DNA of 64,000 nt. Source: Methylibium sp. Root1272 (lineage in GTDB: Bacteria; Pseudomonadota; Gammaproteobacteria; Burkholderiales; Burkholderiaceae_C). Both the position numbers and the translations under genes were made by a program. This document shows, piece after piece, positions 2 through 59,339 of this stretch (its first letter is position 1; every line of letters starts with the position of its first letter). Where the stretch lies: positions 125,734 to 189,733 of the forward strand of contig NZ_LMDY01000012.1 in NCBI RefSeq assembly GCF_001425905.1, in the 5' to 3' direction. The notes under the pieces are model-generated. The model was not told the origin of the DNA, made no database searches, and saw only the letters and a program-made list of their open reading frames with translations.

Positions 2-196
2 CGGACCCGGCTGTTGGCGGAACTCGAATCGGCCCTCGCCGGACCGGATGGGCGACTGCAGCTGAGTTTCGAGATTGTCTACGGCCACGCATTCCGGCCG
101 TTGCCGCGTGTTCGGGTCGCCGCGGAGACGCGTCTCTCGGTCGAGGCCTTGCGCAGTCTCGCGCGCGCCGGCGGCAAATCGGCAAGTGATGCTTGA
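2..196 (+). CDS. C-terminal fragment of a BioC-like SAM-dependent methyltransferase (partial)
   Basis: The open frame enters from the left edge and stops at TGA 194-196, so only about the last 64 residues are visible. The segment LSFEIVYGHAF followed by a basic proline-rich tail resembles the C-terminus of BioC-type malonyl-ACP O-methyltransferases, which in many Burkholderiales lie just upstream of the DUF2244/coxB genes. None of the SAM-binding motifs fall inside the window, so the assignment rests on this short tail and on gene order. If correct, the full protein methylates the malonyl group that primes biotin synthesis. A different class I methyltransferase would fit the visible part almost as well. 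Confidence 0.55.
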   Translation, partial: RTRLLAELESALAGPDGRLQLSFEIVYGHAFRPLPRVRVAAETRLSVEALRSLARAGGKSASDA

Positions 197-56342: not shown

Positions 56343-57923
56343 TCAGCGCAGGAAAAGCTGGTAGACCGGGTTGTTCGTCTCCTCGACGCAGGGATAGTCG
56401 AGCGTGGACAGGAACTCGCGCAGTGCGCGCTGCGCGCCGCGGGGAATCTGCAGGCCGACGAGGATGCGGCCATAGTCGGCGCCCTGGTTGCGGTAGTGGA
56501 ACAGGCTGATGTTCCAGTCGGGGTGCATGCGGGTCAGGAAGCGCATCAGGGCCCCCGGGCGCTCCGGAAACACGAACCGGAACAGCCGCTCCTCGCGGGC
56601 CAGCTCGGAGCGGCCGCCGACCATGTGGCGGATATGGGTCTTGGCCAGCTCGTCGTGCGTCAGGTCGACCGTCGGGAAGCCCTGCTTCTCGAAGCGCTCG
56701 GCAACGCGAGCCGACTCGCCGTGTTCGCGCGTGGCCAGGCCGACGAACACCTGTGCGGTGCGTGCGTCCGAGATGCGGTAGTTGAACTCCGTGACGCTGC
56801 GCGGGCCAAGCAGCTCGCAGAAACGCTTGAAGGAGCCCCGCTCCTCCGGGATCGTGACGGCGAACAGCGCCTCCCGCTCCTCGCCCACTTCGGCCCGCTC
56901 GGCGACGAAGCGCAGCCGGTCGAAGTTCATGTTGGCGCCGCAGGTGATGGCCACGAAGGTCTTGCCCTTGCAGCCGGTGCGCGCCGTGTATTGCTTGATC
57001 GCCGCCACGCCCAGCGCACCCGCAGGCTCCAGGATCGAGCGGGTGTCCTGGAACACATCCTTGATCGCCGCGCAGACGGCATCGGTGTCGACGACCTCGA
57101 AGTCATCGACCAGCAGTTTCGTCAGGCGGAAGGTTTCCTCGCCCACCAGTTTGACGGCAGTGCCGTCGGAAAACAGCCCCACGTCGTGCAGCGTCACGCG
57201 CTTGCCCGCGCGGACCGAGCGCACCATCGCATCGGAATCGGTGGTCTGGACGCCGATCACCCGGATCTCCGGTCGGACCGCCTTGATGTACGCAGCGATA
57301 CCCGAGATCAACCCACCACCGCCCACGGCAACGAACACGGCGTCGATCGGCCCCTGGTGCTGGCGCAGGATCTCCATGGCGATGGTGCCCTGCCCAGCGA
57401 TCACATCCGGATCGTCGAAGGGATGCACGAAGGTCTGGCCGTTCTCTCGCTCGAGCTTCAGCGCGTGGGCGTAGGCGTCGGAATAGCTGTCGCCATGCAG
57501 CACCACCTTGCCGCCGAGCGCCCGCACAGCCTCGACCTTGAGTTGCGGCGTGGTGACCGGCATCACGACCGTTGCCCGGCAACCGAGCTTGCGAGCGGAA
57601 AGCGCAACACCCTGCGCATGGTTGCCTGCCGAAGCGCAGATCACGCCCCGTTCCAATTGCGTCGCGCTCAGATGCGCCATCTTGTTGTAGGCGCCGCGCA
57701 GCTTGAAGCTGAAGACAGGTTGCTCGTCCTCGCGCTTGAGCCAGACCCGGTTGTCGACCCGCTCCGACAGTTGCGGCGCGAACTGCAGAGCCGATTCGTT
57801 AGCCACATCGTAGACCCGCGCCGTCAGGATGCGCTGCAGGTAGTCCGGTGTGACCTTGGCCTTGCGGGGAGCGGGCTTGGCGGCGGGGGGGCGGGGCGCA
57901 GGGCGCGGCGCGGCGCGAGCCAT
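56343..57923 (-). CDS. ilvA: Threonine ammonia-lyase, biosynthetic
   Basis: This 526-residue PLP enzyme converts threonine to 2-oxobutanoate, the first step to isoleucine. The PLP lysine lies in FSFKLRGAYNKM near residue 73, the glycine loop is AVGGGGLISGIAAYIK, and two ACT-like regulatory domains occupy about 345-520 (LFAVTIPEERGSFKRFCELL; LFRFVFPERPGALMRFL), which give feedback control by isoleucine and valine. The first 22 residues form an Ala/Pro/Lys-rich extension. The start ATG follows AAGGAGACTCC. It is a single gene. Confidence 0.97.
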   Translation of the reverse strand: MARAAPRPAPRPPAAKPAPRKAKVTPDYLQRILTARVYDVANESALQFAPQLSERVDNRVWLKREDEQPVFSFKLRGAYNKMAHLSATQLERGVICASAGNHAQGVALSARKLGCRATVVMPVTTPQLKVEAVRALGGKVVLHGDSYSDAYAHALKLERENGQTFVHPFDDPDVIAGQGTIAMEILRQHQGPIDAVFVAVGGGGLISGIAAYIKAVRPEIRVIGVQTTDSDAMVRSVRAGKRVTLHDVGLFSDGTAVKLVGEETFRLTKLLVDDFEVVDTDAVCAAIKDVFQDTRSILEPAGALGVAAIKQYTARTGCKGKTFVAITCGANMNFDRLRFVAERAEVGEEREALFAVTIPEERGSFKRFCELLGPRSVTEFNYRISDARTAQVFVGLATREHGESARVAERFEKQGFPTVDLTHDELAKTHIRHMVGGRSELAREERLFRFVFPERPGALMRFLTRMHPDWNISLFHYRNQGADYGRILVGLQIPRGAQRALREFLSTLDYPCVEETNNPVYQLFLR

Positions 57924-58024: not shown

Positions 58025-58121
58025 TAAAAAAGCCCAAGGCCGTGAGGCCTTGGGCTGAATCCACCTATGGAGGAGGGTGGAGGAGACAAACGGTGATCGG
58101 GTCCAACAAATTCCGATCGAT
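58025..58121 (-). ncRNA. Candidate small RNA with two anti-Shine-Dalgarno motifs
   Basis: The predicted transcript is about 97 nt on the minus strand, in the 320-base gap between ilvA and the osmC-like gene. From its 5' end there are: a hairpin GAUCGG/CCGAUC (58118-58113 with 58100-58095, 12-base loop); a CUCCUCC (58085-58079); a hairpin UCCACC/GGUGGA (58081-58076 with 58065-58060) whose 10-base loop carries a second CUCCUCC (58075-58069); and an 11-bp terminator stem AGCCCAAGGCC/GGCCUUGGGCU with a UCAC loop and six Us (58056-58026). CUCCUCC mimics the 16S anti-Shine-Dalgarno and could pair with GGAGGAG ribosome sites. I see no open frame with a ribosome site in it. The known analogues I recall are the cuckoo and CcsR-type RNAs of alphaproteobacteria. 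Confidence 0.7.
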
Positions 58122-58126
58122 GTGCA

Positions 58127-58156
58127 ATTCTAGCGCGAGCGCATGGTGCGCCGCAA
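58127..58156 (-). promoter_or_regulatory. Promoter of the candidate small RNA
   Basis: On the minus strand TTGCGG (58156-58151) and TAGAAT (58132-58127) are separated by 18 bases, a fair sigma-70 match. The expected start is about 58121-58119, just before the first hairpin. No other transcript on this strand could use it, since the next minus-strand gene downstream is ilvA beyond the terminator at 58026-58056. Confidence 0.6.
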
Positions 58157-58243
58157 CAAGCACGAGCGTTCTTTTTCTAGGGGGAGGGCTCCAGATTCGT
58201 GCGACTCGGCACAATCGGCGCCTCTTCTGGAGGAGTTTCGAAC

Positions 58244-58666
58244 ATGGAGTGCACCGTTCGCTGGCAGCCCGACGCCGGTATGGCCTTCAACGCGGAAACC
58301 GGCAGCGGCCACCTGCTGTCGATGGACGGGGCGCCCGACGGCGGAGGACGCAACCTGGCGCCGCGCCCGATGGAGACCGTGCTGGCCGGGACTGGCGCGT
58401 GCGCCGCCTACGACGTGGTGCTGATCCTGCAGCGCGGGCGACACGACATCCGGGGTTGCGAAGTGAAGCTGAGCGCCGAGCGGGCAACGGTCGATCCGAA
58501 GGTGTTCACGAAGATCCACCTGCAGTTCGTCGTTCGCGGCCGTGGCTTGCCCCAGGGAGCGGTGGAGCGCGCCGTGGCGCTGTCGCACGAAAAATACTGC
58601 TCGGCGAGCGCGATGCTGGCCAAGACCGCCGCCATGACGACCGGCGTGGAGATCGTCGAGGTTTAG
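58244..58666 (+). CDS. OsmC/Ohr-family thiol peroxidase-like protein (YhfA subgroup)
   Basis: This 140-residue OsmC-fold protein has the two redox cysteines in GTGACAAYDVVLIL near residue 47 and in HEKYCSASAMLAKTA near residue 112, as in YhfA-type members. Such proteins reduce organic hydroperoxides or act on small electrophiles. ATG 58244 follows CTGGAGGAG; the frame extends to 58199 but without a better start. It is convergent with coq7. Confidence 0.9.
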   Translation: MECTVRWQPDAGMAFNAETGSGHLLSMDGAPDGGGRNLAPRPMETVLAGTGACAAYDVVLILQRGRHDIRGCEVKLSAERATVDPKVFTKIHLQFVVRGRGLPQGAVERAVALSHEKYCSASAMLAKTAAMTTGVEIVEV

Positions 58667-58700: not shown

Positions 58701-59339
58701 TCAGATGCGGTGAGCGGTCGTGGTCATGACCTTGGCCATGCCTCGCATCAACCACCGCACCGGCGCCGGCAGCGACGTGGCGCCCGCATGCTCGGCGGCG
58801 GCGGCGTGCCGCGCCTCGTCTTCGCGCATCTGGGCCACGATCGCCCGTGACTCGACGTCGGCCACCGGCAATCTGTCGAGGTGCTGAAGCAGGTGTTGCT
58901 CCACCTGCCGCTCCGTCTCGACCACGAAACCGAGGCTGGCGGCGTCGCCGATGCGCGCGGCGATCAACCCCAGGCTGAAAGAACCGGCGTACCACAGCGG
59001 ATTGAGCCAACTGGTGCGTCCGTTCAATTCGGCCAACCGGGCCTCGGTCCAGGCGAGATGGTCTGCTTCCTCACGCGCTGCGTGCTCGAACTGGACCTTG
59101 AGCGCCTCGTTTCGCGTGCCCAGCGCTTGCGAGTCATACAGAGCCTGGGCGCAGACCTCGCCGACATGGTTGACGCGCATCAGCGACGCGGACAGCGCCT
59201 TCTCCTGCGGCGTCAGCGTCAGGCCAGGATCGGCGACCGGCTTCGGTGCAGGGCGCGACGCCGAATGAGCGGTGAACACCGTGTTCAGAGCTTTGTGCAG
59301 CGAAGAAATCACCTGATCGGTGCGGCTGAGTGAACGCAT
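58701..59339 (-). CDS. coq7: 2-nonaprenyl-3-methyl-6-methoxy-1,4-benzoquinol hydroxylase Coq7
   Basis: This 212-residue di-iron hydroxylase makes the penultimate intermediate of ubiquinone. Iron ligands are visible as Glu in MRVNHVGEVCAQALY, ExxH in REEADHLAW, Glu in ETERQVEQHL and ExxxH in REDEARHAAAAE. The first 40 residues are a polar extension, and a C-terminal amphipathic helix could associate with the membrane. ATG 59337-59339 follows a short purine-rich stretch. It is divergent from the porin gene across a 285-base gap. Confidence 0.95.
   Translation of the reverse strand: MRSLSRTDQVISSLHKALNTVFTAHSASRPAPKPVADPGLTLTPQEKALSASLMRVNHVGEVCAQALYDSQALGTRNEALKVQFEHAAREEADHLAWTEARLAELNGRTSWLNPLWYAGSFSLGLIAARIGDAASLGFVVETERQVEQHLLQHLDRLPVADVESRAIVAQMREDEARHAAAAEHAGATSLPAPVRWLMRGMAKVMTTTAHRI

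Follow-up and report, generated by a model that had tools for sequence, protein, structure and literature searches.

The intergenic region between ilvA and osmC

The window, a stretch of 64,000 nucleotides from Methylibium sp. Root1272, has on its minus strand an element with two CU-rich sites, two hairpins in its core and a hairpin in its leader. It is flanked by ilvA on one side and, on the other, by an osmC-like gene that is followed by coq7 (Table 1).

Table 1 Features of the locus and of a related element elsewhere in this genome (window positions unless another handle is given)
Feature	Position	Strand	Basis
RF02278 core with site 1, the site-2 stem-loop and the terminator; a processed form of ~65 nt is expected	58025..58089	-	Rfam, own covariance model R1
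-35 element TTGCGG	58151..58156	-	sequence; identical letters in the same-genus locus L169
-10 element TAGAAT	58127..58132	-	sequence; conserved pattern
5' hairpin, 6-bp stem GAUCGG/CCGAUC	58095..58118	-	fold
Site 1 GUCUCCUCCA, conserved pairing site	58078..58087	-	exact in 74/76 junction RNAs
First CTCCTCC	58079-58085	-	motif scan
Site 2, loop motif CUCCUCC of the middle hairpin	58069..58075	-	motif scan
Middle hairpin, 6-bp stem UCCACC/GGUGGA, 10-nt loop	58060..58081	-	fold
Intrinsic terminator, 11-bp stem 58056-58031 plus T tail	58025..58056	-	terminator scan
ilvA, threonine dehydratase, downstream neighbour of the RNA	56343..57923	-	PF00291 + PF00585
osmC-like gene, conserved neighbour	58244..58666	+	PF02566 OsmC, 58.8 bits
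GGAGGAG ahead of osmC, in this genome a complement of site 1	58229..58235	+	motif scan
coq7, next gene past osmC	58701..59339	-	PF03232 COQ7
Class C element, downstream of phasin	L002:1500-1571; G000:C14:189342-189414	+	

Positions 58025-58088 of the minus strand match RF02278, the Betaproteobacteria toxic small RNA of Rfam, with 66.3 bits at a cut-off of 50 and over the whole model (1-64 of 64). This is the sole Rfam match at gathering thresholds within the 64 kb. The architecture of the family is also present: there are two hairpins, the second of which is an intrinsic terminator, and a CU-rich anti-ribosome-site sequence is found both before and inside the first. Judged by its sequence, the element is a genuine small-RNA gene of an already catalogued betaproteobacterial family that covers ribosome-binding sites. 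The sequence-only reading had proposed an independent small RNA on the minus strand with CU-rich sequence complementary to ribosome sites, and this is upheld. The covariance-model search it recommended led to RF02278, so that the betaproteobacterial family which it was unable to name does exist; an orphan new family was rejected because the match exceeds the cut-off. The case turns a supposed orphan into a named, widespread and presumably regulatory RNA. What is new here is the long-kept chromosomal place and the occurrence of same-seed look-alikes behind two other genes.

According to citing papers, the family was founded by Kimelman 2012, and its name goes back to the toxicity reported on cloning in E. 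coli. Published members are double-hairpin RNAs of Burkholderia cenocepacia, four Hsnc RNAs of Herbaspirillum and S17 of Bordetella; the literature basis also includes PMC4603805, PMC7011215, PMC6321483, PMC9973317 and PMC13104608. The Burkholderia RNAs ncS03, ncS05, ncS27 and ncS62 share with the window RNA the two hairpins, the terminator and the CU-rich sites that precede the first hairpin and lie within it, and the leader hairpin and upstream promoter of the latter recall the longer ncS27. They differ in copy number: three to five are reported in Burkholderia (PMC5688073), whereas the genome-wide search of the present genome gave a single match over the cut-off, the window RNA. Five other matches in this genome score below it (27.6 to 19.1 bits); only one of them, L002, has the seed and it belongs to a different class, and second full copies were therefore rejected. 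Within the GTDB family of this genome RF02278 is found in 129/150 genomes at E<=0.01 (104 over the cut-off), and within the order in 128/200 at E<=0.001 (75 over the cut-off), with up to nine matches per genome. Three genomes of the order (G156, G204, G324) have eight or nine matches each, above the three to five copies that PMC5688073 gives for Burkholderia. At another locus, L150, two copies lie about 2 kb apart on opposite strands.

The 99-nt fold is 4.6 sd below shuffles. Single CTCCTCC strings are uninformative, as their number in the window (10) is not above the 10.1 expected by chance, but two of them spaced by 2-8 nt were found once versus 0.01 expected. Upstream, the -35/-10 pair already pointed out by the sequence-only reading is present in the letters with its spacer of 18 nt. 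It scores 8/12, and a consensus promoter scanner gave no promoter at its threshold between 56500 and 60000. The pattern TTGn3-16..18-TAn3T is present within 120 nt upstream in 56/77 sequences; mononucleotide shuffles contain it in 3.5 on average, and the other strand in 6/77. Thus, the promoter is supported by conservation; transcription as a small RNA is predicted, and we infer a start near 58120-58123.

The 5' hairpin that had been anticipated is recovered in the fold. In relatives, the stability of the leader hairpins exceeds that of shuffles, with a mean z of -2.0 (n=54; these are 54 of the 56 sequences with the promoter pattern, leaders under 20 nt having been excluded), and the leader sequence itself is not kept. 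At L169 the stem reads GATTGG/CCAATC, a compensatory change on both sides with respect to the window, and the core RNA is nearly identical. Two structural details of the first description need adjustment. The second CUCCUCC indeed lies wholly in a hairpin loop, but the first is not entirely single-stranded: its last UCC is inside the stem UCCACC/GGUGGA. The terminator has the 11-bp stem described, but the first of the six Us is counted in this stem and leaves a tail of five.

Conservation of place, stems and pairing sites

The position of the RNA was followed in 80 osmC loci that were picked by OsmC protein similarity alone on genome contigs; since the best 80 of 534 relatives were taken, this sample is biased to close kin. 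Of these best 80, 76 have the RNA at most 800 bp upstream of osmC, on the opposite strand. The same detection rule gave 0/80 on the osmC strand and 0/4000 in mononucleotide shuffles. Both RNA and coq7 are present in 74/80 loci, together with ilvA in 64 and without an ilvA match in 10, some of the latter at contig ends. The RNA therefore occupies the place of S17 (beside coq7 or osmC-coq7); the Bordetella RNA also adjoins coq7 (PMC11722255). By the detection rule the RNA is absent in 4/80 loci: L061 retains a weak, apparently decayed match (26.9 bits with R1), and L074, L092 and L114 have no match. Another 20 loci of the order were collected from RF02278 and RF02877 matches; within 10 kb of these, osmC is matched in eight and coq7 in six.

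For the analysis of the structure, the 68 distinct sequences of the 76 junction RNAs were aligned with the window RNA (alignment A1). Of the stem cells, 92.0% are paired; column shuffles reach 81.9% and slid stems no more than 53.2%. Cells changed on both sides number 153, versus 52.3 in column shuffles. Counted as pairs, such two-sided changes occur in 9, which is not above shuffles (8.6). Most of the covariation sits in the terminator, where 8/11 pairs changed on both sides; the middle hairpin is paired in 99% of the cells and has one such pair out of 6, which could be a single event. The covariance model R1 gives the window RNA 78.3 bits, a score that is high by construction because the window is among the 69 sequences of the model.

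The two CU-rich sites are conserved to a different degree. Site 1, GUCUCCUCCA, is exact in 74/76 junction RNAs and has one change, GUCUCCUCUA, in the other 2. The GUCUCCUCC columns of A1 have a mean of 1.98 bits, whereas the loop columns have 0.95 bits. The motif in the loop after site 1 is CUCCUCC in 25 of the 76, CUCCUC in 15, GCCUCC in 14, CUCC in 13 and another one in 9. The conservation of site 1 was measured on RNAs detected by a rule that contains site 1, a bias that is bounded by the 4/80 loci failing it. By this comparison of sequences, site 1 is the conserved pairing site and the loop motif is less conserved; the pair of CUCCUCC motifs is not the conserved unit. Both stems are supported by A1 and site 1 is nearly invariant, but CUCCUCC in the loop is found in only 25/76. 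This inequality shows an experimenter where to mutate, as evolution keeps site 1 and releases the loop motif. The cuckoo/CcsR RNAs of alphaproteobacteria, which have CU-rich anti-ribosome-site loops (CUCCUCCC) and lie downstream of a small ORF, are an analogy.

Possible mode of action and its alternatives

We consider it very probable that the window RNA is an osmC-coq7-linked RF02278 RNA with its own promoter that is processed like S17 and blocks, by Hfq-aided pairing of site 1, the translation of uptake and catabolic genes and of some regulators. A primary RNA of ~97-99 nt would be made from the sigma-70-type promoter and end at the intrinsic terminator. Cleavage just before GUCUCC, likely by RNase E, would probably give a stable RNA of ~65 nt. 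Together with Hfq, site 1 (GUCUCCUCCA) may then pair with mRNAs that have GGAGGAG(AC) as their ribosome site and block their translation, by which uptake and catabolic genes and some regulators would be damped; the loop motif would be an accessory second contact. Observed here are the sequence, the family membership, the conservation of promoter and structure, the synteny, the unequal conservation of the sites and the presence of an hfq gene in this genome; processing, Hfq binding, repression and targets are extrapolated from published relatives. S17L binds Hfq and is processed by RNase E to give S17S, and S17 represses BP2158, a sigma-54 regulator, via site 1; pairing at the ribosome site was shown by compensatory mutations (PMC11722255). 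In Neisseria, anti-Shine-Dalgarno mutants of NmsR lose repression (PMC5362039).

The likeness to S17/S17S of Bordetella pertussis extends to the place beside coq7, the layout of site 1 and site 2 and a long form next to a short one, expected to have 65-67 nt (PMC11722255). In contrast, the primary RNA is predicted to have ~97-99 nt here versus 190 for S17, the other neighbour is ilvA instead of a glycosyltransferase, and the Bvg control of S17 has no known counterpart here. S17S is reported to be harmless to exponentially growing E. coli BL21 (PMC11722255), so the name "toxic" need not apply.

The sequence GGAGGAGAC-N1..9-ATG occurs 9 times in this genome; the backwards pattern is absent, and one with a permuted extension (GGAGGAGCA) is found once. 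This is a comparison from one genome with one permuted control. Pfam matches were obtained for 6/8 of the proteins behind these sites, the 89-aa reading frame of L134 having been left out: MerR, a sugar/MFS transporter, SnoaL_2, nitronate monooxygenase, GAF plus sigma-54 activator and an EcKL/APH kinase. These classes (MerR, MFS transporter, GAF/sigma-54 activator, enzymes) resemble those of the S17 targets. The leader of the transporter gene could pair with the RNA over 12 uninterrupted bases; the duplex energies were computed without a control. As a side observation, the GAF plus sigma-54 activator gene (L141:1501 onward, in G000:C16 of this genome), which has GGAGGAGAC before its start, encodes the protein class of a verified S17 target. 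Among the other 59 genomes, 5 have a relative of this gene; over the 1700 nt at the start of each fetched locus, GGAGGAG is present in none and GGAGAC in one, and the sigma-54 regulator is not supported as a conserved target outside this genome (0/5).

The strongest competitor is a general translational damper, a growth brake that pairs broadly with ribosome sites instead of choosing a defined set of them. It is favoured by the anti-ribosome-site sequence of site 1, by the family name, which refers to toxicity in E. coli, and by the slower growth on overexpression of ncS27 (PMC5688073). However, the complementarity with AC beyond GGAGGAG is rare, with 9 starts in the genome, and the effects of ncS27 are substrate-specific (PMC10987360), which makes a general brake unlikely, although it deserves some weight. 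None of the observations points to the binding of a sequestering protein, a further role that the sequence-only reading had considered.

Clearly less probable is a mainly local device, in which the RNA would be a terminator or antisense leader that regulates osmC or ends coq7 transcription, with no targets in trans. Its place beside osmC in 76/80 loci would fit, as would the osmC ribosome site of the window: the GGAGGAG noticed there by the sequence-only reading is indeed complementary to site 1. This pairing is not conserved, however. GGAGGAG precedes osmC in 0/80 relatives, assuming that their start is that of the window protein; their ribosome sites are GGAGG in 1, GGAG in 23, AGGA in 26 and none of these in 30. 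Therefore, osmC is apparently no conserved target, and we rejected it as a conserved cis target. Moreover, the RNA has its own conserved promoter, other families of the order carry it away from osmC and coq7 (12 of the 20 further loci have no osmC match within 10 kb), and S17 acts in trans (PMC11722255).

Membership in the Neisseria NmsR family proper (RF02877) can practically be dismissed: its model does match 58026-58120 (E 9e-4), and hairpin, CU-rich linker, CU-rich loop and terminator are common to both, but the score of 33.9 bits is below the RF02877 cut-off of 52, while RF02278 exceeds its own, and neither osmC nor coq7 is present in the fetched 10 kb at eight NmsR-type loci.

A distant relationship is another matter. 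NmsR A/B and NgncR_162/163 have three stem-loops (SL) and two anti-Shine-Dalgarno sites, of which one separates SL1 from SL2 and the other is in the loop of SL2 (PMC5362039), and the window RNA has the same layout; the middle stem is of the CUAU/GUAG type in NmsR versus CCACC/GGUGG here. Tandem siblings like NmsRA and NmsRB were not found among the RF02278 matches of this genome, of which one is over the cut-off. In the 200 genomes of the order, 17/34 RF02877 matches overlap an RF02278 match among the matches listed. Five of these 17 exceed the RF02877 cut-off, but no overlapping locus is, among the matches listed, over both Rfam cut-offs. R1, built from A1 alone, finds all eight NmsR-type loci with E values of 6e-9 to 2.4e-3, which come from a rough calibration. 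These similarities suggest that NmsR RNAs are distant relatives of the RF02278 RNA, and we infer common descent. A structural similarity of NmsR and toxic RNAs was noted by Sass 2017 (PMC5688073); as far as the text of the papers searched goes, no other one contains both "NmsR" and "toxic small RNA". The osmC-coq7 place across several families of the order, taken together with the overlap of the models on the same loci, suggests that RNAs studied separately in Burkholderia, Bordetella, Herbaspirillum and Neisseria belong to one old family. Seven loci (L155, L161, L163-L167) bridge the toxic-RNA and NmsR families of Rfam: either both of the Rfam models match them or R1 does. RF02278 has no clan listed. 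Matches to the Rfam families anti-hemB, ar14 and ncS54 are far under their cut-offs and were taken as an overlap of CU-rich and terminator sequence.

Elements with the same seed behind phasin and flhC genes

The pattern TTGTCTCCTC, followed by 20-50 nt and T5, is present in 98/120 genomes of the family, and its backward control matches in 3. Two further classes can be delineated. Class C consists of the seed UUGUCUCCUC, a GGUACC hairpin and a terminator; it was found in 69/299 family genomes, with 0 control matches. From the 69 matching genomes 30 loci were fetched (L202-L231), and in all 31 loci examined, which include L002 of the present genome, a phasin gene (PF09361) lies on the same strand, and the seed is located 20-192 nt downstream of where the protein alignment stops. 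Class B has the same seed with a GGCAC hairpin (CUGGCAC...GUGC) and a terminator, and is found in 21/299 family genomes, again with 0 control matches; the class B pattern has no match in the present genome. FlhC (PF05280) is encoded within 600 nt upstream in 17 of the 22 listed loci (L232-L253), at 820 nt in one, and was found at none of the remaining four. Neither L002, a class C locus, nor L176, L181 and L194, which belong to class B or to a variant thereof, reach any Rfam cut-off. The consensus folds of both classes agree with the hairpins, and paired changes are seen in the class C terminator and in one closing pair of class B. These elements may be mere 3' ends.

It is tempting to assume that the family has at least three small-RNA classes with the identical 5' seed UUGUCUCCUC on different hairpins, that classes B and C, if they are cut at the seed in the way in which S17L yields S17S, repress the same GGAGGAGAC uptake and catabolic genes, and that all of them form a superfamily with NmsR of Neisseria; taken as a whole, this proposal could equally well turn out right or wrong. 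In the literature searched, including the phasin passages of PMC8401924, we recognised no RNA with this seed that is linked to phasin or flhC, which is no proof of its absence from print. If the proposal is true, the mRNAs of phasin (PHA storage) and FlhC (motility) would each release an RNA, and the network would join carbon storage, motility and nutrient uptake. The same seed behind phasin and flhC genes would, if expressed, make such a shared-target network directly testable. Several class C loci also appear as sub-cut-off RF02278 matches in the family scan.
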